35,496 bases of DNA from a virus, in the IMG/VR virus record IMGVR_UViG_3300050120_000081, positions 1 to 35,496 of that record; one strand, written 5' to 3'. The notes under the pieces were generated by a model that was not told the DNA's origin, ran no database searches, and saw only the letters and a program-made list of their open reading frames with translations. Of the stretch, positions 4,344-32,950 are shown piece by piece (positions within the stretch are counted from its first letter, which is position 1; the number at the start of each line of letters is the position of its first letter). The position numbers were made by a program, and so were the translations under genes.

Positions 4344-4538
4344 ATGGCAGCACCGAAAGAAACACAGGCCAAGCTTGTAGCTTACATTCTCAAGCATCCA
4401 GACAAGACTTACCGGGAACTGAGCCGCACCATTGGAGTCTCAGCCGAAACCATTAGCCGTATCTGCCTCAAGCATGGTGTCCGCCGTCTTGCACCAGCGG
4501 AGACCATCGACCTCAGCAAGCTGGAGGACGGTGAGTAA
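4344..4538 (+). CDS. Small helix-turn-helix protein, 64 aa
   Basis: The ATG follows TTTGGAGAACC. Residues 14-47 read ILKHPDKTYRELSRTIGVSA, then ETISRICLKHGVRR, a compact helix-turn-helix of the kind found in small phage repressors and replication proteins. It is the first of three genes joined by identical GGTGAGTAATGGC junctions, where each stop overlaps the next ATG by one base. A role in controlling early transcription or in replication is inferred from the neighbours. Confidence 0.75.
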   Translation: MAAPKETQAKLVAYILKHPDKTYRELSRTIGVSAETISRICLKHGVRRLAPAETIDLSKLEDGE

Positions 4539-4903
4539 TGGCTGAGTCCAGAGAAGAAAGAAATTCAGACATCGTCATCGGAAGGCTTGTATCGGGTTGT
4601 ATGCCGCCCAGTTTCAAGGGCACCGAGAAGGTCATGCTATATACCCTGCTGTGGTTGATGGAAACCGGTAAGGCGACCAGCCGTGGCAACCTCAGCAAAC
4701 ACACAGGCTTCGGCGTTGGGGCTGTAGGTCTTACCCTCAAGACGCTGGAGCAGTTGGGAATCATTACCAAGAACCAGCACCGCGATGACCGGAACCGTGC
4801 ATGGCACGCCAATACCTATGACGTAAATCTTGAGTATGTTCTGTCCCGCTGCATCTCCGAAGCGGAATCTGAGGCCCGCTACGCCTTGGACGGTGGTGAG
4901 TAA
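4538..4903 (+). CDS. Winged helix-turn-helix protein, 121 aa
   Basis: The ATG overlaps the previous stop. Residues 28-80 read KGTEKVMLYTLLWLMETGKA, then TSRGNLSKHTGFGVGAVGLT, LKTLEQLGIITKNQHRDDRN. This is a winged-helix pattern: a recognition helix followed by a hydrophobic helix and a basic wing. Similar domains occur in phage replication initiators and MarR/DnaD-like proteins. The C-terminal third is acidic and helical. Coupling to the next gene, and the iteron array 700 bases downstream, make a replication or regulatory role plausible. Confidence 0.7.
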   Translation: MAESREERNSDIVIGRLVSGCMPPSFKGTEKVMLYTLLWLMETGKATSRGNLSKHTGFGVGAVGLTLKTLEQLGIITKNQHRDDRNRAWHANTYDVNLEYVLSRCISEAESEARYALDGGE

Positions 4904-5592
4904 TGGCTACCAGTCCGATTGAACCGTCCATCGCGCAGAACTATAACGGGATTCATCTCAACTACGAGTACAACGTCAACACACCCCTGTGGTTGTACGA
5001 CCAGAAGTGGTGGGATACCGAGGGCGGGGGCCGTAAACCGTCCGTGGATGTCATCCGGGTCTATGCTTGGCTCCTCGACAAGGTAACGTCGTGCGTGGCT
5101 GAAAACGGTGTAACTTATGGGATTGTTTTAGGGGGTCGTGAGCTTAGCCACCTTGATATAGGTTCAACATTTGGTATCTCGTGGAGCGGGGTACAACGAG
5201 CTACCGCTTATCTGGTCAAGGTTGACCTCATCGTCCGGCAACAGAACCCGCGTACGAAGGAACACAGCTACTGTGTCCTGCATTGCCGCAAGTTCGAAGT
5301 AAAGCAGGTAGACAGTGTGCCCAAGGAGCTACCCGCAGGTACCACCGTAGCTGGGACGTACAAGGGTACAACCTACTACCGCAAACCGCCGCTGGAATTA
5401 TCCTCACCACCGGTGATAGACCTCAAGCTGACCAAGGGTGTGGCCATCACCGAGGATGAGGATACCTGCTCCGACTGTGGTAAGACGTGTGACGTGAACC
5501 AGTCGGACGACTTCTGCACGTGTCTTAGTCAGCCGGTGGAGACCACTACTAGCTTCAACATCGCTGAGGTTGACGGTGAAGAACTGTACTAG
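4903..5592 (+). CDS. Putative helix-turn-helix/replication protein with C-terminal zinc motif, 229 aa
   Basis: The ATG overlaps the previous stop. The N-terminal half contains GGRELSHLDIGSTFGISWSG and VQRATAYLVKVDLIVRQQNP, a winged-helix-like pattern resembling phage replication initiator domains. A Pro/Thr-rich linker follows. The C-terminal part has CSDCGKTC...CTC (about residues 189-207), which could bind zinc. The candidate origin with six 12-bp iterons begins just downstream of its stop. Phage initiators often lie beside their own binding sites, so this is the best candidate for the iteron-binding protein; that link is inference. Confidence 0.65.
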   Translation: MATSPIEPSIAQNYNGIHLNYEYNVNTPLWLYDQKWWDTEGGGRKPSVDVIRVYAWLLDKVTSCVAENGVTYGIVLGGRELSHLDIGSTFGISWSGVQRATAYLVKVDLIVRQQNPRTKEHSYCVLHCRKFEVKQVDSVPKELPAGTTVAGTYKGTTYYRKPPLELSSPPVIDLKLTKGVAITEDEDTCSDCGKTCDVNQSDDFCTCLSQPVETTTSFNIAEVDGEELY

Positions 5593-5751: not shown

Positions 5752-6069
5752 CCGCATCTTAGAGTATTTCACTGTACCTCACGGGTATTCCAAGGGTATT
5801 CCAACCGTCCTACAGGAGGTAAGGGAAGAACGCCGCCTCCCTACGGGATATAAGCAACGGCAACTTCAACGGCAAAGACAAAGACCATGCGTGTGGGTGT
5901 TAAGTACCCGTTTCATATCGTAGGGTGTTTATTCCCGTGTGGAGTACGAAGAGTTCCGTTCTCGAACCGTTAGGTCTTTAGTTGCCGTCCCAAGTTGAAA
6001 GACTCCCCCTCACACGCGCCGTTCCCCCGCCGATGACGGTATTAGTCTTCAAGGACGGATACCATACCC
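5752..6069. other. Non-coding stretch downstream of the repeat array
   Basis: About 320 bases without a convincing gene. One open frame (5732-5923) starts inside the iterons and has an implausible Arg/Gln-rich composition. GGGTATTCCAAGGGTATTCC near 5780-5800 is a short direct repeat. An AGGAGG-like sequence near 5813-5820 is not followed by a usable start. Several T/A-rich steps could hold a promoter for the gene at 6070, but I cannot point to a defined one. Confidence 0.4.
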
Positions 6070-6282
6070 ATGCAAGTTCATGTACTACTCGACAAAGACA
6101 ACCTAGTGTACGGTGTGGTCACCGATGAGGCCGCTGCTGATGAGTGGCTCAGCTTCGACCCAGACTACATCGCTGTCGGCCCTATCGAGGTCGATGACTA
6201 TGAGTCGTTCCACGAGGTCAAGGAATCGTATGAGGCTGCTCAGGCTGAGGGTGAGCCCGTGGAACTGGATGATGACGCATAA
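6070..6282 (+). CDS. Small very acidic protein, 70 aa, unknown function
   Basis: The ATG at 6070 follows AAGGACGGATACC. The product has a compact N-terminal part (MQVHVLLDKDNLVYGVVTDE) and a strongly acidic remainder (ESYEAAQAEGEPVELDDDA). It lies isolated between two largely non-coding stretches. Small acidic phage proteins sometimes mimic DNA or inhibit host enzymes; nothing in the sequence proves this here. No Cys, no membrane segment. Confidence 0.6.
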   Translation: MQVHVLLDKDNLVYGVVTDEAAADEWLSFDPDYIAVGPIEVDDYESFHEVKESYEAAQAEGEPVELDDDA

Positions 6283-6723
6283 CGTAAGAATGACCACGTT
6301 CGCACTCATCTCCCAGCCGTTTCCCGAGTCCGAGTCACGTCTTCCCTATTGAACTCGAAATGACCTGTGCTTAGTCACATGGGTGAGAGTATATGACTCT
6401 CCCCATTGATAACACTGGACTTACTCCACGTATCAATACACAATCCCCGCTGTTTGTATGACTACCCCTCGTATCTTCGAAAGCCCCCACGACAGTTCAG
6501 GCATGGCCGATAAGTCTTAGTGGCATGACTGGCTCATGTGCAGCACGCACGCGCACTTAGGCCGAAAGAGACCCTATTGGCGGGAAGGGGCGGGGGTCGA
6601 AGCCCCCAAGTACCTCCCATAGCGGCGATGCGTTCGCGTTTACCCAAAGTTGAGGTTGTTACAACGTGTTAGTTTTTCGACTTTCTAAGTATTAGGTAAG
6701 GAGGAGTTACTTCGAACCCTACT
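6283..6723. other. Non-coding region rich in hairpins, 440 bp
   Basis: I see no plausible gene in this stretch. It holds the two adjacent hairpins at 6379-6437, a GGGGG/CCCCC hairpin at 6592-6607 within a very G-rich segment, the palindrome GTTGT-T-ACAAC at 6655-6665, and TAAGTATTAG at 6686-6695 just before the GGTAAGGAGGAG ribosome binding site of the next gene. The 3' part looks like a promoter/operator for the genes from 6724. The 5' part may encode a structured RNA. I looked for a tRNA and found none. Confidence 0.45.
6379..6437. other. Two adjacent hairpins, possible structured RNA
   Basis: The first pairs ATGGG-T-GAGAGT (6379-6390, one bulged T) with ACTCTCCCCAT (6396-6406) around the loop ATATG. 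The second pairs ATTGATA (6405-6411) with TATCAAT (6431-6437), with an inner TGGA/TCCA stem. They share two bases, so they could be alternative folds or DNA operators. No T-run follows. Confidence 0.4.
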
Positions 6724-6891
6724 ATGACCACCTTCTCCACCACTCCTATCCGGGGTGAATATCACCCGGACTACGAGGAACTCCTCCGGCTCAGGTTAAG
6801 GGAGTACCAGACTAGGACAGGGTGCTCCTATGAAGAGCTTCGGGAACTGGAGAAGGAAGTCAGGAGTGTACCGTTCGCCCCCTATGCGTAA
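6724..6891 (+). CDS. Small protein, 55 aa, unknown function
   Basis: The ATG at 6724 follows a GGTAAGGAGGAG site about 15 bases upstream, rather far. The product starts MTTFSTTPIRGEYHPDYEEL and continues with a charged helix (LRLRLREYQ...SYEELRELEKEVRS). It is the first of six small genes that lead to the chaperonin genes. It overlaps the next gene by eight bases. No family recognised. Confidence 0.6.
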   Translation: MTTFSTTPIRGEYHPDYEELLRLRLREYQTRTGCSYEELRELEKEVRSVPFAPYA

Positions 6892-7105
6892 GTTAACTGC
6901 CAACTCGCTCGTCGGCCTAGTTGCCCTCACCATCCCTCCGGTGGAGGGTACCTCTGAGAAGAATCCTGTCACCGAGTTCAAGTCTCCCCAGTTCAAGGTT
7001 CGCTGTACCCGTTGCCAGAGAGACATCACTGAGTTCGACCTTCAGCGGTTGTCGGAACTCATCAACGCTTATGTAGTCATGCCGGGTATTCCCGGTCAGG
7101 AGTAG
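6884..7105 (+). CDS. Small protein with one CxxC pair, 73 aa
   Basis: I choose the ATG at 6884 (MRKLTANSLVGLV...) because an earlier ATG at 6830 would overlap the previous gene by 60 bases. The middle contains KVRCTRCQRDITEFDLQRLS, a single CxxC knuckle, followed by a short hydrophobic helix and PGIPGQE. A single Cys pair would need a partner chain to bind zinc. No function can be assigned. The spacing to the next ATG is five bases, with AGGAG in the stop region. Confidence 0.55.
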   Translation: MRKLTANSLVGLVALTIPPVEGTSEKNPVTEFKSPQFKVRCTRCQRDITEFDLQRLSELINAYVVMPGIPGQE

Positions 7106-7110
7106 TCAGT

Positions 7111-7299
7111 ATGAATCTAGGTTTCCAAGTAACTCGTATCACCATCGAGAACAATGACCTATGGGAGTACACCCTTGAGTCGTTGGACGGCTATGTACGT
7201 GTCATCCCGAGGAGCCTTGGAGGTATCACTCTGTCGGGTGCTCCCAATGCGTACAAGGTGGGGCAACTCCTCACCTTCGAGATAACCGCCCATGTCTAA
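7111..7299 (+). CDS. Small beta-rich protein, 62 aa
   Basis: The ATG at 7111 follows CAGGAGTAGTCAGT. The product MNLGFQVTRITIENNDLWEY... alternates hydrophobic and polar residues and ends VGQLLTFEITAHV, suggesting a small beta-barrel or sandwich. No known family. Its end overlaps the next gene by eight bases, so it is part of the same transcription unit. Confidence 0.6.
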   Translation: MNLGFQVTRITIENNDLWEYTLESLDGYVRVIPRSLGGITLSGAPNAYKVGQLLTFEITAHV

Positions 7300-7660
7300 C
7301 CTCAACTCTTACATCATCTGGTATGCGGACAACCGGTACTCCATCGCATGGGGCGTCAGCCCCGAGGATGCCAAGGCCAAGTATCTCGCCAACTGGGAGA
7401 AGTCCATCGCCTTGGTTGAGTCCACCGCCAAGTACCGCAACCCTCTCCCTCTCGACCGTCAGGTTCCCATCGCCGGTGCTTGCTCATGGGGCGATGAGCC
7501 GGTTCCTCCGACCATCCATGAACCTATCCCGGCCACCCCTGCCCCTGAAACCCCCAAGGCTGACCTTGCTGCTGAGGTAGCTGAACTCAAGGCGTTGGTG
7601 CTGTCTCTGACCAAGGGCAAGGTTGGTTACATCGACCTTGCTGTGAAGGACGCCGAATGA
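7292..7660 (+). CDS. Unknown protein with Pro-rich linker and C-terminal coiled coil, 122 aa
   Basis: The N-terminal part (SNLNSYIIWYADNRYSIAWG, PEDAKAKYLANWEKSIALVE) looks like a small alpha/beta domain. A Pro-rich linker (PPTIHEPIPATPAPETPKA) follows, then a helix with heptad-like leucines (LAAEVAELKALVLSLTKGKV), probably an oligomerisation helix. The stop overlaps the next ATG in an ATGA arrangement. No function is recognised. Confidence 0.6.
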   Translation: MSNLNSYIIWYADNRYSIAWGVSPEDAKAKYLANWEKSIALVESTAKYRNPLPLDRQVPIAGACSWGDEPVPPTIHEPIPATPAPETPKADLAAEVAELKALVLSLTKGKVGYIDLAVKDAE

Positions 7661-7938
7661 AAGTAGAGTCCATCAACCAGACCATCGGCCTCGAACTCCT
7701 ACAGGATGTCATCACCGGCATTCGTGCGGACGGTGCTTACCTCGTCCTGACTTACCGTGACAGGGAAGTCTATTTCAACGACCAAGGCCGCGAAGTCTTC
7801 AGGGTCACTCTCGACCCTCCGCCCCCGCCACCCAAACCCCTCAGCCGCTGGACTCGTTTCTGGCATTGGCTGACCTACATTCAACTTTCACCAAACGAAC
7901 AAGAGGAGATTCAACAGTGGGCCAGACACAGGAAGTAA
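7657..7938 (+). CDS. Unknown protein with polyproline segment, 93 aa
   Basis: The ATGA overlap with the previous gene fixes the start at 7657. The N-terminal 50 residues look beta-rich (GAYLVLTYRDREVYFNDQGR). They are followed by DPPPPPPKPLSRWTRFWHWL, a polyproline run and a Trp-rich amphipathic helix, and a polar tail. The Trp-rich helix could touch a membrane or another protein. Runs of six prolines stall ribosomes unless EF-P helps, an oddity for a small phage gene. Confidence 0.6.
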   Translation: MKVESINQTIGLELLQDVITGIRADGAYLVLTYRDREVYFNDQGREVFRVTLDPPPPPPKPLSRWTRFWHWLTYIQLSPNEQEEIQQWARHRK

Positions 7939-7940
7939 AG

Positions 7941-8198
7941 ATGACCGTCACTCGCACTTGTGACGTATGCAACACCAGCAAGACCATGGTGCAGACGCAG
8001 GGAGAGCCCGTGGACGCGACCCAGCTTGCTGCCCTTGAGGGTTGGTACATCCTCAGCAAAGACCATGTAGTCGGCGAAGGCATCGCTCCCATCGGCAAGG
8101 TCGCATGTTCCCGCACCTGTGCCATCTCGGTCATCGAGAACAACCTGCTTGAGGTTCCGACCACCAACGTCCTCGACTTCAAGAAGGTGATGAACTAA
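7941..8198 (+). CDS. Zinc-binding protein with two Cys pairs, 85 aa
   Basis: The frame is open from 7866, but the ATG at 7941 fits best: it comes two bases after the previous stop, with AGGAAGTAAAG upstream. Residues 4-13 contain TCDVCNTSK and residues 57-62 CSRTC, which could form one zinc site. The part between reads EPVDATQLAALEGWYILSKD. It immediately precedes groEL (stop and ATG are adjacent) and may be part of the chaperonin operon. The function is unknown. Confidence 0.65.
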   Translation: MTVTRTCDVCNTSKTMVQTQGEPVDATQLAALEGWYILSKDHVVGEGIAPIGKVACSRTCAISVIENNLLEVPTTNVLDFKKVMN

Positions 8199-9821
8199 AT
8201 GAGTAAGTCCCTCAGCTACGGCTCCGAGTCACGCAAGCACATCCTCGCGGGTGTGGACTTCCTCGCGGATGCGGTTAAGGTCACGTTAGGCCCCAAGGGC
8301 CGCAACGCGGTCATCGGGCGTCGTCGCCTGAACCTGAACCCGCTTATTACGAAAGACGGCGTGACCGTTGCGAACCATACCAGTCCCTCCGACCCCCGCC
8401 ATGTCATCGGTGCTGACCTTGCACGTGAAGCTGCGAACCGCTGCGTGTATGCAACCGGGGACGGAACCACTACCACGACCGTGCTGGTGCAAGGGATGGT
8501 TCGGGCCGGAATGAACTTCATCAACCAAGGCATCGACCCTTGGTCTATCAAGCGTGGCATGGACAAGGCGTCCGCCCTCATTATTGAACAGTTGGAGACC
8601 ATCGCTCAGCCCTTGACCACCCCAGAGCAGACGTTCCACATCGCCAACATAAGCTCGAACGGTGATGAGGCCATCGCGTCCTTGGTCTGCGATGCCATCA
8701 AGCAGGTAGGTATTGAAGGCTGTGTTGCTGTTGAAGAGTCCCAGACCGTGCTCACCGAGTTGTCAGTCACATCGGGCATCTCTTTCAAGTCCGGTGAATT
8801 CCTATCCACCACGTTCGTCACCGACCCGGAACGATTCGAAGCGGTCTATGAAGACGCGCTCATCCTTCTGTTCGAGGGCAAGATTCTCAGCGGCAAGTCA
8901 TTGGCTCCGCTGTTGGGCCAAGTTGCGAAGGCTGGAAAGCCTCTTCTCATCATCGCCGGGGAGTATGAACAGGACGCTCTCTCTGTGCTCGTCTACAACC
9001 GTGCCAAGGCCAATGTGCCATGGGTGGCTGTGCGGACGGGACAGTATGCGGAACGCCGGAAGGACATCCTCCGTGACATCGCCTCCCTCACCGGAGGTAC
9101 CGCCATCCTTGAAGGGGATGGAACCAAGATTGAGAACGTAACCCTCGCTCAGTTGGGCCAAGCTAAGCGAATAGTCGTCAGCGACCAAAGCACGACCATT
9201 GTTGACGGCTATGGTGACGCTGAAGCGGTCTCCTCACGGGCAGCAGAGATTCGTACCCGTCTGGAGACCGCCGAAGGCGTCAACAAGTCATGGCTCGAAC
9301 GCCGACTGGCCCAACTCACCGGGGGCATCGCTGTCATCAAGGTTGGTGGTCACACCGACACCGAAATGCGCGAGAAAAAGGATAGGTTCGATGACGCTGT
9401 GGGTGCTACCCGTGCTGCTATCGAGAAGGGATTCGTTCCCGGTGGTGGTCTGTCCCTGTTGAAGGCCCAAGCACGGGTCTTCGCAACGCTCAAGGGAGAT
9501 GAACAGGTTGGGTTAACTGTCGTATCCCAAGCCTGTGCAGAGCCGCTGAAGCAGATTGCACGCAACGCAGGGTTCGACCCGGATGAGGTTCTCACCAGCA
9601 CCATGAGTGAGACCGGTTACCGGCTCCCCAACACCGCGTGGGGTTTCGATGCCAAGGCTGGAGAGTACACCGACCTCATTGAGCGTGGCGTCATCGACCC
9701 CGTGAAAGTAGTTATCGAAGCGTTGCGTAACGCAACAGCAACCGCTGGGATGATTCTCACCACTGAGTGCCTCATCGCTGAGGGTGTAGAGGAGGCCACT
9801 CATGTTGACGCCTCTGTATGA
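8199..9821 (+). CDS. groEL: Phage-encoded GroEL-type chaperonin, 540 aa
   Basis: A group I chaperonin: fourteen-subunit double rings fold proteins using ATP, with a GroES lid. Length matches the family (about 540-550). ATP-site motifs are in place: LGPKGRN (30-36), TKDGVTV with D53, GDGTTTTT with D88, the Asp pair FDDAVGATRAA near 398, and PGGG at 414-417. The hinge and apical regions are recognisable (VAKAGKPLLIIAG, ERRKDILRDIASLTGG). The apical substrate-binding segment is changed: E. coli GYLSPYF corresponds to GEFLSTTF. The C-terminus ends HVDASV, without the usual GGM repeats. groES follows with a 20-base overlap and small terminase comes next, so virion proteins are likely clients. Confidence 0.97.
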   Translation: MSKSLSYGSESRKHILAGVDFLADAVKVTLGPKGRNAVIGRRRLNLNPLITKDGVTVANHTSPSDPRHVIGADLAREAANRCVYATGDGTTTTTVLVQGMVRAGMNFINQGIDPWSIKRGMDKASALIIEQLETIAQPLTTPEQTFHIANISSNGDEAIASLVCDAIKQVGIEGCVAVEESQTVLTELSVTSGISFKSGEFLSTTFVTDPERFEAVYEDALILLFEGKILSGKSLAPLLGQVAKAGKPLLIIAGEYEQDALSVLVYNRAKANVPWVAVRTGQYAERRKDILRDIASLTGGTAILEGDGTKIENVTLAQLGQAKRIVVSDQSTTIVDGYGDAEAVSSRAAEIRTRLETAEGVNKSWLERRLAQLTGGIAVIKVGGHTDTEMREKKDRFDDAVGATRAAIEKGFVPGGGLSLLKAQARVFATLKGDEQVGLTVVSQACAEPLKQIARNAGFDPDEVLTSTMSETGYRLPNTAWGFDAKAGEYTDLIERGVIDPVKVVIEALRNATATAGMILTTECLIAEGVEEATHVDASV

Positions 9822-10083
9822 CCAGATTCTTGTGGTGGACATCCCCACGGAACAGACCATTGACGGCATCCTGCTGCCTGAAACCAGCAGAGCCGACGTG
9901 TTCTTCAGCAAGGTGATGGCTGTGGGTGAGGGGTACATCCGTGAAGACGGGTCTACCCGGCCTCTGCGTCTCGCTGTTGGAGACACAATCGTCCGAGGCA
10001 TGTACTCGGGCATCCCGCTTCGTTTCGACGGTGTGGAATTTTTCTTACTCAAGGAGGGCGAATGTCTAGCTCGGATTACCTAA
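9802..10083 (+). CDS. groES: Phage-encoded GroES-type co-chaperonin, 93 aa
   Basis: Ten-kDa co-chaperonin that caps GroEL. MLTPLYDQILVVDIP corresponds to the PLxDRVxV start of GroES. The mobile loop carries TIDGILLPE, where ILL takes the place of the IVL tripeptide that docks on GroEL. VMAVGEGYI, VGDTIVRGMYSGIPLRFDG and the ending KEGECLARI match the family beta-barrel. The gene starts inside the end of groEL (20-base overlap) and itself overlaps the small terminase start by 22 bases. In bacteria groES precedes groEL; here the order is reversed. Confidence 0.93.
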   Translation: MLTPLYDQILVVDIPTEQTIDGILLPETSRADVFFSKVMAVGEGYIREDGSTRPLRLAVGDTIVRGMYSGIPLRFDGVEFFLLKEGECLARIT

Positions 10084-10667
10084 AACGTGAGAACGCGGAC
10101 ATCGCCTATGCTCTCTGGCACTATGCCAAGGATGAGAACGACCGACGTGTGCCTCTGGACGAACTTGCCCAGACACCGGAGTTCCTCGTCCTCACAAAGA
10201 AGCAGAAGTTGTTCATCGCGACATACATCATGAACGGCTACGATGCGGTCAATGCTATCCGCACGGCCTATGACTGCAAGGATGACTCCATCGCAGCCAT
10301 CATGCAGCACCGTTTGTTCAACACCTTCTCGATTTCGATGGCGATGAGCCGTCACTTTGGCTCAGACCCCAAGAAGGTGTTCATGGTTCGCCTCATCAAG
10401 ACCATGACCAAGGGGATTATCAACAACAACCAGATTCGAGCGTACGAGTTGTACGCCCGGTTGAACGGCTGGGACGACTCTCCGCTGCTACAAGCAGCCA
10501 AGATTGCCAAGGAACTGGGCTCGAACTGTGTTACTCGCAAAGGTCAAAAGGGTGAGAAGGTAGACCCCACCAACACCAAGGCCACAATCAAGAAAGTCAT
10601 AGACGACAACACTCCCGACGCGAAGTCAGACTACGACTTCTCTTTTTTGAAGGGAGACAAAGAATGA
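10062..10667 (+). CDS. Terminase small subunit, 201 aa
   Basis: The ATG at 10062 follows a strong AAGGAGGGCG site within groES. The central segment LTKKQKLFIATYIMNGYDAV, NAIRTAYDCKDDS is the hallmark of small terminases of the helix-turn-helix type (LTxKQxxFxxxYxxxGxxAxxAxxxAY). A central helical oligomerisation part and a Lys/Asp-rich tail follow. It recognises the packaging site and recruits the large terminase encoded at 11517. The ATGA overlap at its end joins it to the following damaged gene. Confidence 0.85.
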   Translation: MSSSDYLKRENADIAYALWHYAKDENDRRVPLDELAQTPEFLVLTKKQKLFIATYIMNGYDAVNAIRTAYDCKDDSIAAIMQHRLFNTFSISMAMSRHFGSDPKKVFMVRLIKTMTKGIINNNQIRAYELYARLNGWDDSPLLQAAKIAKELGSNCVTRKGQKGEKVDPTNTKATIKKVIDDNTPDAKSDYDFSFLKGDKE

Positions 10668-10917
10668 AACCTGACATCAAGGGCTCGGAACCACCAAGGA
10701 AGAGGGAGAGTACGGCACTAAGTCATCGGGATTCGCCGGTGGGGGCCCGTTCTCCTGCTCTAACTGCGTCCATGCGAAGCAAGTGAAGCAGGAACTGGTC
10801 TGTGAGCACCCCATCACCAACGCAGACCCGGAGTTGAAGGACGCAGAGCACATCAATGACCTGCTCAAGGTCGATTGGGATGACTGCTGCACCTTCGTTC
10901 GTCCTCGTGGCGAATAA
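10664..10917 (+). pseudogene. Cys-rich phage protein with one-base frameshift
   Basis: An ATG at 10664 (ATGA overlap with the terminase gene) opens a frame that ends after 40 residues of implausible Arg/Ser-rich sequence. From about 10680 a different frame gives convincing protein: TTKEEGEYGTKSSGFAGGGP, FSCSNCVHAKQ, LVCEHP, DWDDCCTFVRPRGE, ending at TAA 10915-10917. That Cys pattern (CxxC, C, CC) occurs in small phage proteins that may bind a metal or Fe-S cluster. One extra base near 10676-10682 would join MKPDIKG to this part, giving about 84 residues. A sequencing error, a true mutation or programmed frameshifting are all possible. Confidence 0.65.
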
Positions 10918-10919
10918 TT

Positions 10920-10944
10920 CTGACTACCGCACTCAATCTTAGGA
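10920..10944 (+). promoter_or_regulatory. Repeated element (C/T)TGACT-N13-TTAGAG, copy 1
   Basis: CTGACT at 10920-10925, then 13 bases, then TTAGGA at 10939-10944. It starts three bases after the preceding stop and lies just before the gene at 10954. Its second half overlaps the ribosome binding site. Confidence 0.4.
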
Positions 10945-10953
10945 GCTTCCTTT

Positions 10954-11157
10954 ATGAAAATGCATGAAGCCTTGTCCTCACTGGGCAAGAAGACGGAAAA
11001 GAAAGACGCTCATCCCGGTTTCAAGGCCATAGAGAGCAAGATTGCTTCGAAGGAAGGTATTTCGAAGGACAGTGCGGGTGCCATTCTGGCCTCTGCGGCT
11101 CGTAAGTCGTCCCCAGCCGCCAATAAAGCCAACCCAAATCTCAAGAAGGTCAAGTAA
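10954..11157 (+). CDS. Small basic conserved phage protein, 67 aa
   Basis: The ATG at 10954 follows TTAGGAGCTTCCTTT. The sequence contains HPGFKAIESKIASKEGISKD, SAGAILASAARKSS and ends NPNLKKVK. This GFKAxxxKIAxKEGxSxxxAGAILASxxR pattern is familiar from small proteins found near terminase or head genes in many phages. It is basic and helical; a DNA or head role is inferred only. The function is not established. Confidence 0.75.
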   Translation: MKMHEALSSLGKKTEKKDAHPGFKAIESKIASKEGISKDSAGAILASAARKSSPAANKANPNLKKVK

Positions 11158-11221
11158 CTCTCAGAACATAGACGGGAGCCTAGCTCAACGTTGTTCTACA
11201 GCCGAGTACGAAAGGTCAACA

Positions 11222-11503
11222 ATGTTGCAGGAGACTCTAGTCAATTTTATTCCCGCGAAGTATGTCTATTACGCTTGCGGAATTCTACTCAGTTTGGTAG
11301 TAGCCATGATTTCACTTGGTGCGAGGAAGGTACTCGATGAGGTCGATGAGGCCAAGGGTAAAATCTCTGCCATCTCCACGGAACTAACCCTCCAGCGAAC
11401 TAACTGCCTCACCACGCTCCAGCAACAGGGAGAGAAGCAAATCCAGTTGCTCGAACGTATTGCCGAGTCGGTCTCTTACCTGAAGGGGAAGAACGACCAA
11501 TAA
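11222..11503 (+). CDS. Small membrane protein with coiled coil, 93 aa, holin-like
   Basis: The frame is open from 11042, but the ATG at 11222 is the sensible start. Residues 10-35 form one membrane helix (YVYYACGILLSLVVAMISLG). The rest is a long charged helix with coiled-coil character (VLDEVDEAKGKISAISTELT, GEKQIQLLERIAESVSYLK). One-helix phage membrane proteins of this form may be holins, spanin-like or superinfection proteins. No endolysin lies nearby, so the lysis role is uncertain. It stands directly before large terminase. Confidence 0.6.
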   Translation: MLQETLVNFIPAKYVYYACGILLSLVVAMISLGARKVLDEVDEAKGKISAISTELTLQRTNCLTTLQQQGEKQIQLLERIAESVSYLKGKNDQ

Positions 11504-11516
11504 AGGACATCCACTT

Positions 11517-13265
11517 ATGGCTTATGACGTGGATATGTCCAACTTCCCCGCAAAGTTCCTCAAAGACTTCAACAAACTAACTACCGCACAAAAGCAAGCA
11601 TGGAAGGACACACGCTATCGTGCCCTGACCGATGAACTGTTTTTCTCGACGGAAGTGATGGGCATGGACTTTCAGGTCAACCCACACTCATTGCTGTTCC
11701 AGAAGCTCATCAAGAAGAAGCCCGGTACGCCGCTCTACGACCTCGACTTGAAAAAGAAGAAGCGGATGATTCTCTGGCCCCGTGGTCTGTTCAAGACATC
11801 CAGCATCATCGTTGAGATATGCCATCTCATCGTGAACTACCCCAACATCCGTATTGCGTTCCTCACCGGTGGCGACATGCTTGCCAAGCGGCAACTCGCC
11901 CGTGTGAAGAAGGTGTTCGAGCAGCCCACCAAGATGTTCGAGCAACTCTTCCCAGAATTCTGCGGCAAGAAGCTAGGCAACATGTCGAGCTTCTCTGTGC
12001 CCTGCCAGTCTGCATCCCGTACCTATGCCGAACCTACGATGGCTATCACCACCGCCCGTAGCGTCAAGGCCGGTTCCCACTACGATGTCATCTTCGTGGA
12101 CGACCTCGTGAACGAAACCAACTATCGTTCCATCAAGTCGCTTGAGAAGTGTATGCAAGACTACCGGGACATCTGCCCCCTGCTTGCTCCTGATGGCTTC
12201 ATGTACATCACTGGGACACGTTACTCGTTCGGAGACACCTACGAAGAGATTCAGGAACTCGCGAAGAAGGAGACTGAGCAGCTTGGCTCTAACCCATGGA
12301 TTTTCTCCATCAAGTCCTGCTGGACAAAAATCTGCTCGTGCGGTCACAACGATGCCTTCCATGACTTTGACTCCGACCCTGACGGCCCGTGCGGCGGAGG
12401 CATCCTTGACGGTACCCTCTGCTCCTGCAAACGGTTCATCGACAGCAAGGCTACCGGTCTGCTCTTCCCCAAGTTCCGTACCAAGAGTGGGGATTCTGAA
12501 GGTCACAGCATCGAGAAGCTCAACTCGGAGAAGCTGCAACTAGGGGCTGAATTCTTCTCCTGCCAGTACGAGAACAACCCTCTGGCTGAGGGTGAGCAGA
12601 CATTCACCGAGGAACTCATCGGCAAGCAGACCGTGTGGCATCAGGCTCAGTTCCCCACCGCTCTACAAGCCCCGTGCTTCTTCATGTGTGACCTGAGCTA
12701 TACCGGCAACGATAAGCGAGACGTGAGCGTGTTCTATTGCGTCCGTCACTGGATGGGCAAGCTGTACGTGGTGGACTGCCACAGCGGTAAGTGGGACGCA
12801 GCCGCAGTTGTGGAAGAGATGTATCGCTTCGCCCTCAAACATCGCCCTGTCCTTATCTGGGTCGAGCAATTTAATGGCTGGGACGCCTATAACAACCTCT
12901 TCATCACGTTCGCCCGTGACAAGAACATCACCCCCCTCCCTATCGAATGGAAAAAGATGTCGCAGGGTGAAGGAGCGAAGAAGGTTCGCATAGGAGCCAT
13001 CAAGGGTGTTCTGGCTCAGGGCAGACTCGTCCTATACGGGCACATGCCGGACTATGAGGCTCTCTGCACCCAGTTGAAGCGTTGGCCCAAGCTCGGCAAG
13101 CACGATGACTTCGCAGACTGCTTGGGTCTGGTGTGTGAGTGCCCGACCGGAATGGTGTCACAAGCTCTGGCTCCAGCAGAGGACATATCTTCGATGTCTT
13201 TTATCAGGAACCTCCACAGGGAGCCTGAAGAGGCTTATGACACCCGGATACCGGGTACGTACTAA
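11517..13265 (+). CDS. Terminase large subunit with zinc-finger-like insert, 582 aa
   Basis: ATP-driven DNA packaging motor and nuclease. The ATPase has a Walker A variant LWPRGLFKTS (86-95), Walker B VIFVDD (191-196) and the motif GTRY (233-236). The RNase H-like nuclease has CDLS with D392, WVEQ with E450 and HDDFAD (529-534). Between the two domains, residues 273-304 contain CSCGH, H282, C292 and CSCKRF, a Cys/His-rich insert that may bind zinc and is not typical of large terminases. The PRG-type Walker A resembles podovirus terminases. The C-terminus is TRIPGTY, shared with the product of the gene at 15484. Confidence 0.93.
   Translation: MAYDVDMSNFPAKFLKDFNKLTTAQKQAWKDTRYRALTDELFFSTEVMGMDFQVNPHSLLFQKLIKKKPGTPLYDLDLKKKKRMILWPRGLFKTSSIIVEICHLIVNYPNIRIAFLTGGDMLAKRQLARVKKVFEQPTKMFEQLFPEFCGKKLGNMSSFSVPCQSASRTYAEPTMAITTARSVKAGSHYDVIFVDDLVNETNYRSIKSLEKCMQDYRDICPLLAPDGFMYITGTRYSFGDTYEEIQELAKKETEQLGSNPWIFSIKSCWTKICSCGHNDAFHDFDSDPDGPCGGGILDGTLCSCKRFIDSKATGLLFPKFRTKSGDSEGHSIEKLNSEKLQLGAEFFSCQYENNPLAEGEQTFTEELIGKQTVWHQAQFPTALQAPCFFMCDLSYTGNDKRDVSVFYCVRHWMGKLYVVDCHSGKWDAAAVVEEMYRFALKHRPVLIWVEQFNGWDAYNNLFITFARDKNITPLPIEWKKMSQGEGAKKVRIGAIKGVLAQGRLVLYGHMPDYEALCTQLKRWPKLGKHDDFADCLGLVCECPTGMVSQALAPAEDISSMSFIRNLHREPEEAYDTRIPGTY
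13242..13264. repeat. 23-bp shared sequence at the end of the terminase gene
   Basis: 21 of 23 bases match 15856-15878. It encodes TRIPGTY and the stop. CCCGG-ATA-CCGGG within it can form a five-bp hairpin. Confidence 0.75.
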
Positions 13266-13312: not shown

Positions 13313-15484
13313 ATGGACATCGACAAGCTCGGCCAAATAACGCTACAGGATTTGCCGGGGGCATTGCCACCGGGCGAAGCCTCCCTGCTCATTGAAAAGA
13401 CAGATGTGGGCTTTGCCGATGACGACCGCTCTGACTCGTCCATGCTCAAGGAAGCCACGCAGAACCGCAGCATGGCCGAAGCCTTCGAATCCAGCCGTGG
13501 TCTTATCCTCAACTGGAACGTTACCGAACTCATGCTTCGCGCCTACGTGGAGCCGGTCAAGTGGAAGGGTAGCGACCAGTACCGCTCCCACCTTGGTCTG
13601 CCTCTACTCGGCGAACACTTCTACTCCATGTTGGCCGTATGCCAAGAGACCCTCTTCGCGGGGTTCCAGCCATTCCAACTAGACCCAACATCAGGCACCG
13701 ATGCCGACACCGCAGCCGCTGAGACCGCCCTTGTGCGTGCCCAGATGAAGCGTTGCGGCTACCGTGGCTCAACCATGAAGCAGGAGATGCGTCACGTTAT
13801 ATACGACGGCCTTCTGTACGGTACCGGTGTGGCTCACATCGGTTGGGAGTCATACACACAGGAAGTGAAGAAGCTTCGTTCCAAGACCGCAACCACAGCC
13901 ATCGCTGTTGGCGGTGGAGCTATCTCAATTCCGCAGGGTGATATTGACGACACCGAGGAGTATGTAGACCATCTCATTGAATACAACCAAGCCAAGTTTG
14001 AGCACGTGCCGGTTCGTCGTCTCCGTGTAGACCCGACCTGCCGTCGCGGCGAAATCTGGACAGCCCAGTGGGCCGCTCGTCTCATCTACCCAAGCTCGTA
14101 TGACCTTGACCGTCTTCGCGACACCGAAGGGTTCAACATCCCCACCCGTGAGGAACTCATTGCCCTGTCCACTCCTCAGCGGATGGATGGCACTCCTTAC
14201 AACGTCCTCGACACGCAGGGTGCCAACAGCATCGGCAACGTGTTCCGTCAGACCAGTACACCGCAGAAGGCGTACCCCGAAGACTATGACAACTCCAAGG
14301 CTGACCCTCTCGCCAAGGCATGGGAAGTGTACGACTACTGGACGGCCTATCGTCATGTGATGGTGTTGAACAACCAGTACGTCATCTACAACCAGCCCCA
14401 TGATTTGGGCAAGATTCCATTCCTAAGCTTCGTGTTCCGTGAGGCTCCAGACAGTTTTTATGGCTACGGCCTCGGCTTCTGGCTGTGCGACTACCAGCGT
14501 ATCGGTCAGGGCATCGTCAACGCTTTCTTCGATGACTTGAACCTGAACATCATGGGTACATACACATCGGACGCGGGGTCGAACAACTCGGCTCAGGCTC
14601 AGTGGATTTTTCCGGGCAAAATTATGAAGACTGACCCCGGCAAGAAGATTGAACCTCTGGCCCGTAACAGTGTTGGTCTCGAACCGCTTCAGGTCATCGA
14701 GCAGGTCAAGGCGTGGGCAGTTCAAATCTCCGGTGCGGGTATCACCGCCACTGGAACCAACGCAGGAGCCCCCGGCGACCTTCGTACACCCGCTGGTGCT
14801 GCTGCCGTCGCCCAAGGTGAAGGTGTCAAGACCACCGACCTTATCGACCAGATTTGCGACAACATGTTTGTCCCGTTCATCGAGTACGTCATCGAACAGA
14901 ACCACCGCTTGAAGCCTTCTCAAATCAAGCAGTGGCTCTCAGATGAACTCTCGACCGCGTACAAGCAGGTTGACCCTCTGTCGGTTGCCAACGGTCAGTA
15001 CATCGTTACTGTCTCGGCGGCTACACGTCTCCGTGCCCGTCAGCAGTTGAACTCGCTCATGGGCTTTATCGAGACGCTGGTACAGGGTCAGAACACTTCC
15101 GACATGCTTGCCGTTCAGGGTATGAAGATTAACTTCGCTGAACTGGTCAAGACCCTCATCGACTCCAGCGGTCTCCCGATGCGTGAGAACGTCATCCAGC
15201 CGATGACCGATGAAGACAAGCAGCGTCTCGCCGCTCAGCAACAGGCTCCTCCTCCGTTCGAACAGCAGGAGGGAATCAAGGCTCAGGCCAAGATGAAGAT
15301 TGACGACAACCAAGCTGAGAACCGGATTCTCATCAAGACCGGCGAAGCGACGTTGAAGTCCAACCAGATGCAACAGGCTCACGGTCACACGGTGGAAGAG
15401 GATGCTCTCAACCGTGCGGAACGTAGCTCGTTCGAAACCAGCGATAAAAACTTCGTTGGTGGTGGCGGAACAGGACAGATTTAA
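13313..15484 (+). CDS. Portal protein, 723 aa
   Basis: The dodecameric portal forms the DNA channel at one head vertex and docks the terminase. Position between large terminase and scaffold and the length support this. Recognisable portal features are VKWKGSDQYRSHLGLPLLGE, the central FYGYGLGFWLCDYQRIGQG followed by helix NAFFDDLNLN, TDPGKKIEPLARNSVGLEPL, and the C-terminal helical part with VSAATRLRARQQLNSLMGFI. The tail is Gln-rich (LAAQQQAPPPFEQQEG) and ends GGGGTGQI. The length suits podovirus-type portals. The stop overlaps the next ATG by one base. Confidence 0.85.
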   Translation: MDIDKLGQITLQDLPGALPPGEASLLIEKTDVGFADDDRSDSSMLKEATQNRSMAEAFESSRGLILNWNVTELMLRAYVEPVKWKGSDQYRSHLGLPLLGEHFYSMLAVCQETLFAGFQPFQLDPTSGTDADTAAAETALVRAQMKRCGYRGSTMKQEMRHVIYDGLLYGTGVAHIGWESYTQEVKKLRSKTATTAIAVGGGAISIPQGDIDDTEEYVDHLIEYNQAKFEHVPVRRLRVDPTCRRGEIWTAQWAARLIYPSSYDLDRLRDTEGFNIPTREELIALSTPQRMDGTPYNVLDTQGANSIGNVFRQTSTPQKAYPEDYDNSKADPLAKAWEVYDYWTAYRHVMVLNNQYVIYNQPHDLGKIPFLSFVFREAPDSFYGYGLGFWLCDYQRIGQGIVNAFFDDLNLNIMGTYTSDAGSNNSAQAQWIFPGKIMKTDPGKKIEPLARNSVGLEPLQVIEQVKAWAVQISGAGITATGTNAGAPGDLRTPAGAAAVAQGEGVKTTDLIDQICDNMFVPFIEYVIEQNHRLKPSQIKQWLSDELSTAYKQVDPLSVANGQYIVTVSAATRLRARQQLNSLMGFIETLVQGQNTSDMLAVQGMKINFAELVKTLIDSSGLPMRENVIQPMTDEDKQRLAAQQQAPPPFEQQEGIKAQAKMKIDDNQAENRILIKTGEATLKSNQMQQAHGHTVEEDALNRAERSSFETSDKNFVGGGGTGQI

Positions 15485-16929: not shown

Positions 16930-17931
16930 ATGCCTTCACTTACTCCCGGCGTAACTTCCGCCACTCTCGCTGCCTTTCCTCAGATTGCTTACAACAAGCA
17001 GTCCATCATGGAATGGCAAGCAAATACTCCGGCTCTGGTCGAGTTGACTGACTCCCGCCCGATGCCCCGGCGCGCTGGTCGCACCCAGCAATTCTACGGA
17101 CAGGTTCCTTTCACCGCTGCTCCCGGCCCTGTTTCCGAGGCAGTTCCTCCTCCGTCTCTCTCCCTCTCGCAGGTTGTGTCGCAGTCGTACTGCGATGAAT
17201 ACGGCGACTGGGTTGGTATCTCGAACGTTGCCAAGGATATGTTCCTCGCGGACATCACCCTCGATGCACAGCGCAACCTTGCATACCGTGGCGCGTTGAC
17301 CGCGAACCTCGTGGTCTTCAATGCGTTCGAGTCGGCGTCAGCAGCTTCTGCTGCGGCCCGTATCGACCTCACGGGTACCATGCTTGCCCAGACTGTCAAG
17401 AAGGCTGAGACCCAGTTGATGGGTGCAAACGTTCCTACCCGTACGGGTGGAATGTACTCCGCAGTCATGCACCCTTATGTGTGCTACGACTTCACCAGTG
17501 ACCAGACCATCGGCGGTTACCTCGACGTTGCCCGTCGTAACTACACCGCTCCTTCCTACGTCAATGCCCTCTCGAAGGACATGACGGTTGGATACACGGT
17601 GTATGACTGGGCCGGTGTTCGCATCGTCCGTACCTCCACGGTTCCGACCTATGCCAACTACCCGACCGCTGGGTTGACTGGATACGCTTCATATTTTGTG
17701 GGCCGCGAAGCCATGATTTCCAGCGAGTTGCTCGGTGAAGCAGTGCCGAAAGACCCGAACTTCAAGACCCGCGTTCAGATTTTCGGCGACAACGATGCAA
17801 GCCTGAGCGACCCGTTGCTCCAGACTCGCGCCATCGTCAGCTATGACTGGTTCCTCGGTGTAACGGCTCGTCCGAACACCAACGGCACTCCGGGCTTCCG
17901 TCGTGTCCGTAGCCAGACAGCCGCTGTCTAA
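16930..17931 (+). CDS. Major capsid protein, N4-gp56-like, 333 aa
   Basis: The ATG at 16930 follows CAGAGGATTAAACACT. Location after the scaffold, length and style fit a major capsid protein. Features suggesting the N4-gp56 family are the N-terminal VTSATLAAFPQIAYNKQSI, a loop GRTQQFYGQVPFTAAPG, SQSYCDEYGDWVGIS, the GGMYSAVMHPYVCYDF segment and the C-terminal IVSYDWFLGVTARPNTNG. The HK97 fold is implied by family knowledge. It is likely highly expressed: its own upstream element, and a hairpin directly after the stop. Confidence 0.85.
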   Translation: MPSLTPGVTSATLAAFPQIAYNKQSIMEWQANTPALVELTDSRPMPRRAGRTQQFYGQVPFTAAPGPVSEAVPPPSLSLSQVVSQSYCDEYGDWVGISNVAKDMFLADITLDAQRNLAYRGALTANLVVFNAFESASAASAAARIDLTGTMLAQTVKKAETQLMGANVPTRTGGMYSAVMHPYVCYDFTSDQTIGGYLDVARRNYTAPSYVNALSKDMTVGYTVYDWAGVRIVRTSTVPTYANYPTAGLTGYASYFVGREAMISSELLGEAVPKDPNFKTRVQIFGDNDASLSDPLLQTRAIVSYDWFLGVTARPNTNGTPGFRRVRSQTAAV

Positions 17932-18762: not shown

Positions 18763-19245
18763 ATGGCGATAACTATAGGTGAGCGATTTGGTAAGTGGGT
18801 AGTTACTGGGGAGTCGGATAAGAAGTACGGTTCTCTGCATTGGTTGTGTGTCTGCGATTGTGGCACGAAAAAGGCTGTACGGGAGCGGCACCTTATAGGT
18901 CAAGCCTCCACGTGTTGCTCCAAGTGTCAGGCAGGTAAGACATCGGAAGCAGCAACTCGTAGGTTACGCCGCTCTCCACGGGGTCGGTTGCTTCATATAG
19001 GTACCAGCCGTCGTCAGGCTTTTTATAAGCGGGTGGTGGATGAACAATTTGAGCTTCAGAAGGGTTTGTGCGCTGTCTGTATGAAGCCTTTGGTTAACGA
19101 CTTCTCAGCTTGCTTTGACCATGACCATACGACCGATGAATACCGGGAGTTAGTTCACAGGGGCTGTAACGTTTTCATCGGGTGGCTTGAGCGAGACCCC
19201 GAAGTAGTAGCTAGGACACTTGAATACTTGGAGAAATACAAATGA
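18763..19245 (+). CDS. HNH endonuclease of endonuclease VII type, probable homing endonuclease, 160 aa
   Basis: Residues 6-55 (GERFGKWVVTGES, LHWLCVCDCGTKKAVRERHL, STCCSKC) form the Cys-rich N-terminal domain seen in many phage homing endonucleases. Residues 101-140 are a beta-beta-alpha-metal nuclease: CAVC (103-106), FDHDH (118-122) and RGCNVFIGWL with C135 and N136, as in T4 endonuclease VII relatives. D119-H122 should hold the catalytic His. It follows a terminator and has a weak ribosome binding site. The stop overlaps the next gene (ATGA). A free-standing homing endonuclease inserted between structural genes is the simplest reading. Confidence 0.85.
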   Translation: MAITIGERFGKWVVTGESDKKYGSLHWLCVCDCGTKKAVRERHLIGQASTCCSKCQAGKTSEAATRRLRRSPRGRLLHIGTSRRQAFYKRVVDEQFELQKGLCAVCMKPLVNDFSACFDHDHTTDEYRELVHRGCNVFIGWLERDPEVVARTLEYLEKYK

Positions 19246-27069: not shown

Positions 27070-27531
27070 ATGTATTACACCTACCTCTGGCTTAGAGAAG
27101 ATGGTACCCCTTACTACGTGGGTAAAGGTACGGGCGACCGTGCGTTTGTCAGGTACAACCATCGTCACTATCCGCCCAAGGATAAGTCTCTCATTCTGCT
27201 TCAGGAACACATATCTGAGCAGGACGCCCTTGAGGCTGAGAAGTTCCTCATCACGTTCTATGGGCGAGTTGACCTTGGCACCGGCTGTCTTAGGAACCTG
27301 ACTGATGGTGGGGATAATCCTCCCTCTCGAAAAGGTAAGACCATGCCGGAAGAGGCGAAGCAAAGAATCAGAGCGGCACTTAAGGGAAGGAAGCGACCAG
27401 AATCCTTCCGGCTCAAGATGCTCGGAAAACAAAACAACCTTGGCTACAGACACACTGCTGAGGCCAAGAAGCGAATTGGAGAAGCGAGTCTAGGCAACAC
27501 ATATGCCACTCGTAGAGGAACAAATGGCTAA
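27070..27531 (+). CDS. GIY-YIG homing endonuclease with NUMOD3-type repeats, 153 aa
   Basis: MYYTYLWLREDGTPYYVGKG followed by GDRAFVRYNHRHY is a GIY-YIG catalytic domain (YTYLW and YYVGKG, basic helix), with a conserved Glu in LEAEKFLITFYG. The DNA-binding part has two NUMOD3-type motifs: SRKGKTMPEEAKQRIRAALK with GRKRPES, and LGYRHTAEAKKRIGEASLGN. Its length fits free-standing phage enzymes. The end of the gene overlaps the start of the giant tail gene by eight bases and contains that gene's ribosome binding site (AGAGGAACAA). Translation is probably controlled by the hairpin at 27031-27066. Confidence 0.9.
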   Translation: MYYTYLWLREDGTPYYVGKGTGDRAFVRYNHRHYPPKDKSLILLQEHISEQDALEAEKFLITFYGRVDLGTGCLRNLTDGGDNPPSRKGKTMPEEAKQRIRAALKGRKRPESFRLKMLGKQNNLGYRHTAEAKKRIGEASLGNTYATRRGTNG

Positions 27532-30500
27532 GACACCCACACCACGACCACTAGAGATTCCGTACTTCGGAACGGGTTTCTACACCTATCGCAGCCAGTT
27601 GTTCCAGCCGTTCCGTTCGATGGGCGTGAATATCGTCTCGTTCCATGATGCGGTTCTCGCTGGGGCGGATATGGAGTTGTCGGATTTGATGGAGTGGGTG
27701 CAGCGTCCGGGCTTCACCGTGTTCTGCACCGAACCCCTCTCCACCGGCGAAATCATAAACCAGTTTTATTCAGCCCGTGCCCTCAATGGCACGCTGTTGA
27801 CCATGTTCGATTCGAACGAGCGTCTGGCTACCTTCAACGGTACGACCATCACCACGCTCTACACCAAGAACACGTCTGCTCAGGGGTTCATCAATCAGGT
27901 CGGCAATACCACCTACTTCTACGATGGAGTGGATGCAGTTCGCTACGACCAGACGTATGGTCTGACTCCAAACGGTATTGCTGCACCTACCTCCACTGTC
28001 GATGTCTCAGACACCGGTGGTTGGCTCCCCGACCAGCCTTACGCTGCGGGTTCCGTCCTTCTGGATTACAACGGCAACGTGGAGTATGCGGCTAACGTCT
28101 CCGCTGGTACCTCCCTGCTTCAGGACAACACCGGAGTAGCCGCTGTCAATGGCACATGGTGGGAGACCGTCAACGGCGGAGCCCAGTGGCGTACCACAGG
28201 CTTTGCTACCTCAGGTTCCTACATCACCCCTATCAACTCCTTCATCGCTCAGGGGTTTGGTTTCAGCCTTCCAACCAACGCCGTCATCCTCGGTGTGCAG
28301 GTTGTGTTTGGCACCGTCGCCCAGTTCACCACAGGGGCGAACATTGTAGGTGCCTCCTTGTTCTACAACGGGGCGGCTATCGGCACCACTCGTGACCCTG
28401 CGACTCCCTTCCTCACTATCACTCAGACTCAGACGTATGGTCTGTCGAATGACACATGGGGTGCGACCCTTACTCCCGCTATCGTGAACGACCCGAGCTT
28501 CGGCTTCGGGCTTTCCGTGCAGCTATACAACCAGCGTGTGTTCATTGATGCCCCGTTCGAGATGCGCGTGTACTACTTCATCCCGACAGGTACCGGTGGC
28601 ACGGCTGGTGTCTCTGGCTCCACGCTGCCCAACTGGTCTGCTCTTCCGGGTTCGTACACCACCGATGGCACCATGCGTTGGAACAATTTGGGTGTGATGG
28701 GTCAGTGGATACCGCTGGTAGCTTACACCATCCCATCGGTCATCCTCGACTCGAACAACAACCTTCAGTCGGTCTCCGTCATCACCGCTGTTGCCGCTTA
28801 CAACAACGGTCATACGTATCACTCTGGGGACGTAGTTACCTATGCCGGTCAATACTGGACGGCACAGGCTACCATCACCGGAGTGGTACCTAACTCCTCT
28901 GTGGCGAACGTGGTCACGTCGGGTGGTACTGCGACTTACAACTACAACTGGATTCAGACCCCGAACCCTCAGACATCTGGGGCCACGGTACCGGTGTGGA
29001 ACACGGTGGTCGGTGGTCAGACGAACGACGGCAACTTGGTCTGGACGAACATTGGCCCCGGCAACATCCTTGTGAACGCTGGGTACTCCTACGGCGTCTG
29101 CTACCGCACCATGGATGGGCATCTCTCCACCATGAGCGTACCTGTGCCGAACCAAGGCACCGGCCCGTTGCTGGGTGGAAGTCCGTTGGCTACCTCCAAC
29201 ATCTCCAGCTTCAGCATCACATCGAACATCGTCACCTTCATCTCGCAGCAGACTTTCACCAAGGGTGAAGCGGTCTATGTGCAGGGTATGCTTCAGGGCA
29301 CCTACCTGAACGACCACGTGTTCACGGTAGCCTCGGCTATCCCGTCTGCGTCGTACTCCATCACCAACGTTGCCCTCACCAGCAACGTGGTCACCTTCAC
29401 TGCGGTCAATTCACTCGCAGCAGGTACACAGGTCACCATCCAGAGCCTCACCGGTGCTGCCTTCCTGAACGGTCAAACGCTGACGGTAGCTTCGGCCACG
29501 GGCACAACCTTCACTGCCAACTTCACTCACGCGAACTACGGTTCCGCTGGGGACGCTGGTACCGCCATCGTCGTGGCACAGTTCACCACTGGGTTCACCC
29601 ATGCTGACGTTGCTTCCACCCCGGACGTTGGAACGGTCAACCCGGTCATCGCTACCTTGAATGGTACGGGTACCTCCGACCCACGTCTTCAGTACGTGAC
29701 CAACATCACCGAAGTGGCTGTCACCGGCAACCAAGTCACCTTGACTTGCAACAACATTTTCTTCCCCGGCAACACCATCTTGGTGACCGACCTGAGCCTC
29801 GCTGCGTTCTTGAACGACTTCACGTTGCTCATCGCCACCGCTACGCCTACGCAGATTACCGCTTACTTCCAGACACCGGATTACCCGGCCACTCCCGACA
29901 CGGGACTCGCTACCTTCATGGGTATCGAAATCTACCGCACCGCCGATGGTGGTGGTATCTGGTATCAGGTCGGTGTGGCTCAGCCGAATCAGGATAGCGT
30001 CACCGCTCTTCCTTCCTCGGCATCTAACTCCGGTCTCGGCATCCCGTGGCAGGTTACCAGTGAACTCATCGGTACCGGTACCGGCACAGGAACCACGGCG
30101 GCTATCACCAACATTGCTCTGACCTCGAACGTTGTCACCCTGACCACCAGCAACCAGAGTTTCACTGCTGGTCAGGTTGTCACTGTGTCCAACATGGGCA
30201 ACAACACCTTCCTCAACGGGGCTAACCTCACTGTGCTTGCGAGTGGGTTGACCTCAACCTCGTTCTCCGCTGCCTTCACCCACGGTAACGTGTCATCGGT
30301 TGCGGATGCGGGGTTTGTCTCCGACAACACCGCCTTCACCTATGCTGCGAACCAGCCTTATGTGACGCCGGGTGCGGGTCAGTACGTGGTCTATTGCCCA
30401 GCCGTAGATGGCAGCGGTGCTCTCGAAGAGAGCGGTCTGTACTTCGGCACCCCGTGGAGCTTCTACGGCTCCCAGCGTGCTTGCTCCGGCAACGGGGGTA

Positions 30501-32488: not shown

Positions 32489-32950
32489 ATGAAAAGGTCA
32501 GACCCAGAGTACGTGAAGGAATACCGCAAGCGAAATGTAGATAAGTTACGGGCTCAAGGTAGAGAGTTCCAGACCAAGTGGTTGGAGAGAGACCCGAAAA
32601 ACAAAGAGTACGCCAAGGAAGCTTGTCGTCTTTATCGGCTGAACAACCCCGAGCGGTTTTTGTGGCTGTCAGCTAAGAAGAGAGCTAAGAAGAGAGCAAA
32701 GGAGCAGGGGCTACCGTTCAACGTGACTGTAGCTGACATTGTGATTCCGTCACACTGCCCAGTATTGGGGATTGAACTGGTGAGGGGCGACTACAACACT
32801 GCTCCGAGTCTCGACAAGATTGTTCCCGCTCTCGGTTACGTGAAGGGGAATGTCGCTGTGATTTCGAAGAGGGCAAACATGATTAAGAGCAACGCGAACG
32901 CAGAGGAATTGTCGCTTGTTCTGGAATACGTAAAGAGGGTCACACCATGA
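32489..32950 (+). CDS. Putative HNH-like endonuclease (phage SLDK/GYVKGN family), 153 aa
   Basis: N-terminal half is a highly basic helix (YRKRNVDKLRAQGREFQTKW, LSAKKRAKKRAKEQGLPFNV). The C-terminal half reads TVADIVIPSHCPVLGIELVR, TAPSLDKIVPALGYVKGNVA, VISKRANMIKSNANAEELSL. The set CPxLGxxL, PSLDxIxPxxGYxxGNVxVIS and RANxIKS is characteristic of phage proteins usually annotated as HNH-type endonucleases; N and H positions of the nuclease are less clear than in typical HNH. It has almost no ribosome binding site and lies between two structural genes, overlapping the next by ATGA. A free-standing homing endonuclease is likely. Confidence 0.7.
   Translation: MKRSDPEYVKEYRKRNVDKLRAQGREFQTKWLERDPKNKEYAKEACRLYRLNNPERFLWLSAKKRAKKRAKEQGLPFNVTVADIVIPSHCPVLGIELVRGDYNTAPSLDKIVPALGYVKGNVAVISKRANMIKSNANAEELSLVLEYVKRVTP

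Follow-up and report, generated by a model that had tools for sequence, protein, structure and literature searches.

Why would a phage carry a complete GroEL-GroES pair directly in front of its packaging genes, and whose proteins would such a pair fold? These questions are raised by IMG/VR virus record IMGVR_UViG_3300050120_000081, all 35,496 nt (35.5 kb) of which were analysed here (the window); the record is probably a fragment of a virus genome.

A chaperonin pair at the head of the packaging genes

Three genes follow one another on the plus strand: groEL (8199..9821), encoding a group I chaperonin large subunit of 540 aa; groES (9802..10083), encoding a co-chaperonin, or lid, of 93 aa; and terS (10062..10667), encoding a small terminase subunit of 201 aa. 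The first two overlap by 20 bases and the last two by 22. An earlier note on this DNA had given these positions, the reversed order and both overlaps, and it was right in every detail that we checked. An AGGAGG-type ribosome-binding site precedes the starts of both groES and terS, and the ATG of groEL is immediately preceded by the stop of a 110-aa ORF with a TTG start (7866..8198, plus strand), similar to ORFs found upstream of groEL in three relatives (L002, L003 and L014). The terS call is the weaker one (phrog_51, 1.1e-4; Pfam Terminase_2, E 0.0089, under its cut-off), and we accepted it because the position of the gene and its syntenic homologues adjoining groES in relatives support it. 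Further along the same strand lie terL, the large terminase subunit (11517..13265; phrog_38, 1.1e-47), an SU10-type portal protein (13313..15484; Pfam PF23899, 1.3e-24) and the major head protein (16930..17931; phrog_1357, 3.5e-16), a candidate client of the chaperonin. By Pfam and PHROG the order terS, terL, portal, head protein is that of a phage packaging operon; the groES-groEL order of the bacterial groE operon is reversed, with groEL first. A promoter scan of positions 6000-11600 gave nothing above chance, and a search for phage records with similar DNA across the cassette block returned only short pieces of groEL.

Several other features of the window are worth recording. Two neighbouring weak matches to DnaD-like helicase loaders (4538-5592) indicate that a replication region precedes the cassette. 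Two endonuclease VII/HNH-like genes, possibly free-standing homing endonucleases, lie amid the structural genes (18763-19245 and 32489-32950), and a 1647-aa ORF without a convincing family match in Pfam or PHROG (27503-32446) likely encodes a large virion protein.

Divergent but genuine group I chaperonins

Profile matches and predicted folds place both proteins squarely among the group I chaperonins. GroEL matches Pfam Cpn60_TCP1 (PF00118, E 1.5e-63) over its full length as well as phrog_5725, 'chaperonin groEL' (2.5e-133), and its AlphaFold2 model (mean pLDDT 88) has the three-domain fold and matches GroEL structures (Foldseek E 1e-52). For GroES, the corresponding evidence comes from Pfam Cpn10 (PF00166, E 1.7e-16), PHROG 'co-chaperonin GroES' (2.1e-15) and an AlphaFold2 model (pLDDT 89) that matches GroES/Cpn10 structures. 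The family residues that the earlier note had picked out are present in both proteins: alignment places the ATPase residues D52, D87 and D398 (mature E. coli numbering) at D53, D88 and D399 of the window protein, which also has the GDGTT loop, and the mobile loop of GroES reads IDGILLP with the hydrophobic tripeptide ILL kept. Compared with relative L002, 60% of third codon positions differ but only 17% of second positions, the mark of purifying selection.

At the same time, the proteins are far from their enterobacterial counterparts. GroEL is 42% identical to that of Salmonella and 27% identical to gp146 of phage EL, and GroES is 28% identical to enterobacterial GroES. Alignment with enterobacterial GroEL also bears out the absence of the GGM tail stated in the earlier note. 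We examined eight hydrophobic apical positions that make up the classical lid and substrate contact set of GroEL. Half of them are kept (F204, L237, L259 and V263) and half are changed (Y199F, Y203T, L234A and V264Y), in agreement with the earlier remark that the apical binding segment is altered. Since Y203 and V264 contact substrate directly in E. coli GroEL (PMC10723157), classical folding might be reduced in the window protein.

Gene order and phylogeny of the cassette

The nearest relatives of the window are viral contigs L002, L003 and L017, which have the same gene order and GroELs 64-69% identical to the window's. More distant viral contigs, some up to ~100 kb long and with GroEL about 42-46% identical, share groEL-groES-terS too. 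A profile survey of all loci found this arrangement in 19 distinct contigs; all environmental records compared are fragments. In this survey nearly all bacterial loci fetched and most other viruses had the groES-groEL order. All 19 clade members keep groES, with its conserved hydrophobic loop, downstream of groEL. The tight overlap is not universal: its length differs from member to member, and in several of them 160-620 bases lie between the two genes. Thus it is the gene order, and not the overlap, that is conserved in the clade. Scanning the loci with the single terS protein of the window gave no match, whereas the aligned terS family did find terS homologues. As this profile was built from the groEL-groES-terS clade itself, the absence of terS matches beside other phage chaperonins is not a fair test.

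In a 70-row GroEL tree all 19 contigs form one clade (SH-aLRT 100). Because AR9, EL and others form very long branches in that tree, we take the support from a careful, reduced 42-row tree without them, in which the 14 retained groEL-groES-terS contigs group with bootstrap/SH-aLRT values of 100/99. These trees place no group firmly beside the viral clade. In a weakly resolved GroES tree, the same contigs require 2 label changes versus 15.9 with shuffled labels, which is consistent with joint inheritance of groES and groEL. Within the clade, the GroES proteins of the larger subclade (L004, L006, L007, L010, L014, L023-L026, L028, L031, L033 and L109) are missing ~9-10 residues at the bacterial roof hairpin, which suggests that their lids are more open at the top.

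Outside the clade, reversed order occurs in viral contig L044 and in the cultured Flavobacterium phage elemoD, and would therefore have arisen about three times. The earlier interpretation holds for a complete, divergent and reversed pair joined to the packaging genes and containing a specialised GroEL; the supposed rarity of self-contained pairs finds no support. Of 80 viral contigs selected for having the closest GroELs, 73 have groES within the fetched flanks, and pairs exist in cultured phages, elemoD among them. Three cultured Vibrio phages with groEL also have groES elsewhere (MG592671.1, MW824370.1 and OM249648.1; L195, L197 and L207): their Cpn10 gene lies far off in the genome and not beside groEL. 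Two further observations concern the records themselves. Six IMG/VR records of isolate genomes (L029, L030, L032, L045, L046 and L049) start exactly at the first base of a groEL frame, as though the edge of a provirus coincided with the groEL gene of the host. Another record, titled 'Bacteriophage sp.' (L193, MT835992.1), has a groES-groEL pair placed among Bacillota GroELs and may be bacterial DNA.

When the cassette was acquired

A scan with terL found relatives at 43-61% identity. We counted those whose upstream DNA extends for at least 5.6 kb, because the groES-to-terL distance reaches about 8.6 kb and shorter records could not be judged. All ten carry the pair or a cut remainder of it upstream (L211, L213, L214, L216, L218, L220, L225, L228, L229 and L230, the last being the contig of L010, which has the pair). 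Among relatives at 26-31% identity, a terS-like gene lies upstream of terL in nine loci; the stretches read contained neither groEL nor groES, and no Cpn60 was found in the 9/9 records searched whole. The nearest cultured phage by both terL and portal is Tunturiibacter phage Tunturi_3, a podovirus of an acidobacterium (PMC11924767), whose complete genome has neither groEL nor groES. Since all near terL relatives with enough upstream DNA have the pair, distant ones do not and the GroELs form one clade, the cassette appears to be ancestral to one lineage of uncultured phages. The simplest reading of these mostly partial records is that it was gained at the base of that lineage; loss in the other terL relatives is a possible alternative.

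Loss of allosteric sites

In apo-GroEL of E. coli, two salt bridges, D83-K327 and R197-E386, hold the ring in its taut state; they are an allosteric feature and are not needed for membership in group I. Neither residue pair is kept in the window GroEL, which has Y83, D327, S197 and D386 at these positions. Both D83 and K327 are replaced in all 19 clade members, where position 197 is K, S or E and position 386 is V, L, D, N or, in three members, E. K105 is likewise absent throughout (0/19; one member has R). Sampled bacteria kept D83 in 16 of 17 cases and K327 and E386 in all 17. Together with the apical changes, these clade-wide replacements support the earlier suggestion that this GroEL is specialised.

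Both bridges and K105 have allosteric roles in GroEL, and with K105 replaced by Ala the rings no longer show negative cooperativity toward each other (PMC5941174), while in the E. coli D83A/R197A double mutant neighbouring apical domains detach (PMC10723157). With all of these sites lost, the taut state is predicted to be held only weakly, and negative cooperativity from one ring to the other to be weak as well. We infer that the window GroEL would switch more easily to the lid-accepting state and that its rings would be more loosely coupled, although a K452-D461 bridge could still link them. Such a cycle is predicted to be biased toward lid-accepting, double-lidded or separated rings. Loss of R197-E386 has also been reported for the chaperonins of phages EL (PMC7185714) and OBP (PMC9598537), and part of the allosteric-site loss is therefore convergent. 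It is tempting to speculate further that the phage lineage coupled a full chaperonin set to its packaging genes and re-tuned the allostery of the GroEL, so that the cage leans toward lid-accepting or double-lidded forms and folds only head or terminase proteins of the phage, but we offer this only tentatively.

Proposed function

Our preferred reading, to which we assign a probability of about 0.62, is that the pair is an ATP-driven folding cage encoded, lid included, by the phage itself, produced alongside the head and packaging proteins and serving them, and that it is an ancestral cassette of the lineage. We infer that GroEL forms rings that pair with their own lid: the ring would bind ATP and unfolded protein, and GroES would shut the chamber. 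As the cassette heads the packaging and head gene block and is probably co-translated through overlapping start and stop codons, the cage would be produced together with the proteins needing it. Most plausibly these clients are head and packaging proteins, by analogy with lambda and T4; phages are known to depend on GroE for their head proteins, with lambda and T4 gp31 as cases (PMC9598537). The earlier note likewise put forward the capsid protein as a candidate client and suggested that GroEL may work only with its own lid. The cassette would have settled in front of terS in the lineage's ancestor and been inherited ever since.

Alternatively, the pair might be an auxiliary gene set that boosts folding in general in the infected host, its place before terS being incidental. 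Other phage chaperonins do lie in non-structural regions, namely near nrdAB in Vibrio phage 144E46.1, adjoining DNA polymerase in the Flavobacterium immuto phage and near exonucleases in Cellulophaga phi38:1. However, the linkage to terS persists in contigs whose GroEL shares only about 42-46% identity with that of the window, and the substrate and lid-contact positions have diverged from the bacterial consensus, which makes a general booster unlikely. We regard as rather improbable the idea that GroEL is chiefly a holdase needing no lid, as in phage EL, with GroES being a remnant or acting on host GroEL. The missing R197-E386 bridge, shared with two chaperonins reported to work without a lid, and the changed residues at Y199, Y203, L234 and V264 would fit it, but every clade member has a groES with a conserved hydrophobic loop behind its groEL, and the window GroEL is closer to the enterobacterial protein than to that of EL. 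Finally, although group I chaperonins presumably have a bacterial source in the end, a recently acquired and rearranged bacterial groE operon is made very improbable by a best bacterial GroEL identity of 47% versus 68-69% for viral contigs that share the window's gene order and by the long, fully supported viral stem in the GroEL trees.

Relation to known chaperonin systems

Paired viral chaperonins are already known and common. Marine et al. 2017 (ISME J 11:2479) reportedly described groEL/groES pairs in virioplankton and linked subunit gene order to GroEL phylogeny. These are likewise divergent viral group I pairs, whereas the window lineage has groEL first and terS directly behind. Some phages have been noted to encode both groEL and groES (PMC7185714), and viral GroELs have been reported from environmental marine genomes (PMC5332604) and soil (PMC8390657). 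Two features appear to be new, unless Marine et al. 2017 already covers them: the whole lineage keeps the pair tied to terS, and the whole clade has lost the allosteric bridges.

Among cultured phages, elemoD (NC_055855) resembles the window in layout, as groEL leads and shares a 1-base overlap with groES, but its GroEL is only ~29% identical to the window's, sits on a separate branch of the tree and does not adjoin a terminase. Flavobacterium phage immuto_2-6A and Cellulophaga phi38:1 also have self-contained pairs; in these groES comes first, and no terminase lies alongside in the stretch read. The laboratory-studied GroEL homologues EL gp146, OBP gp246 and AR9 gp228 are phage-encoded as well, and those of EL and OBP share the absence of R197-E386 (PMC7185714, PMC9598537). 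Nonetheless, the EL and AR9 proteins are much more divergent (27% and 22% identical to the window GroEL), and all three are reported to work without a co-chaperonin, whereas the window phage encodes its own lid. T4 provides a phage lid for head protein folding, gp31 (PMC9598537), which serves host GroEL; the window phage, unlike T4, brings its own GroEL, and the fold of its GroES matches gp31 only weakly (E 4.8e-3). With the GroEL-GroES pair of Salmonella and E. coli the window pair shares the three-domain fold, the catalytic Asp residues and a lid with a hydrophobic loop, differing in gene order, in sequence (42% and 28% identity) and in the lack of the GGM tail, the taut-state salt bridges and K105. 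The missing bridges are the very ones that GroEL researchers mutate away. A divergent pair that lacks them, has its own lid and has long stayed joined to packaging genes in evolution offers a natural way to learn which allosteric features are essential to a functioning cage, and whether phages reserve such a cage for building virions.
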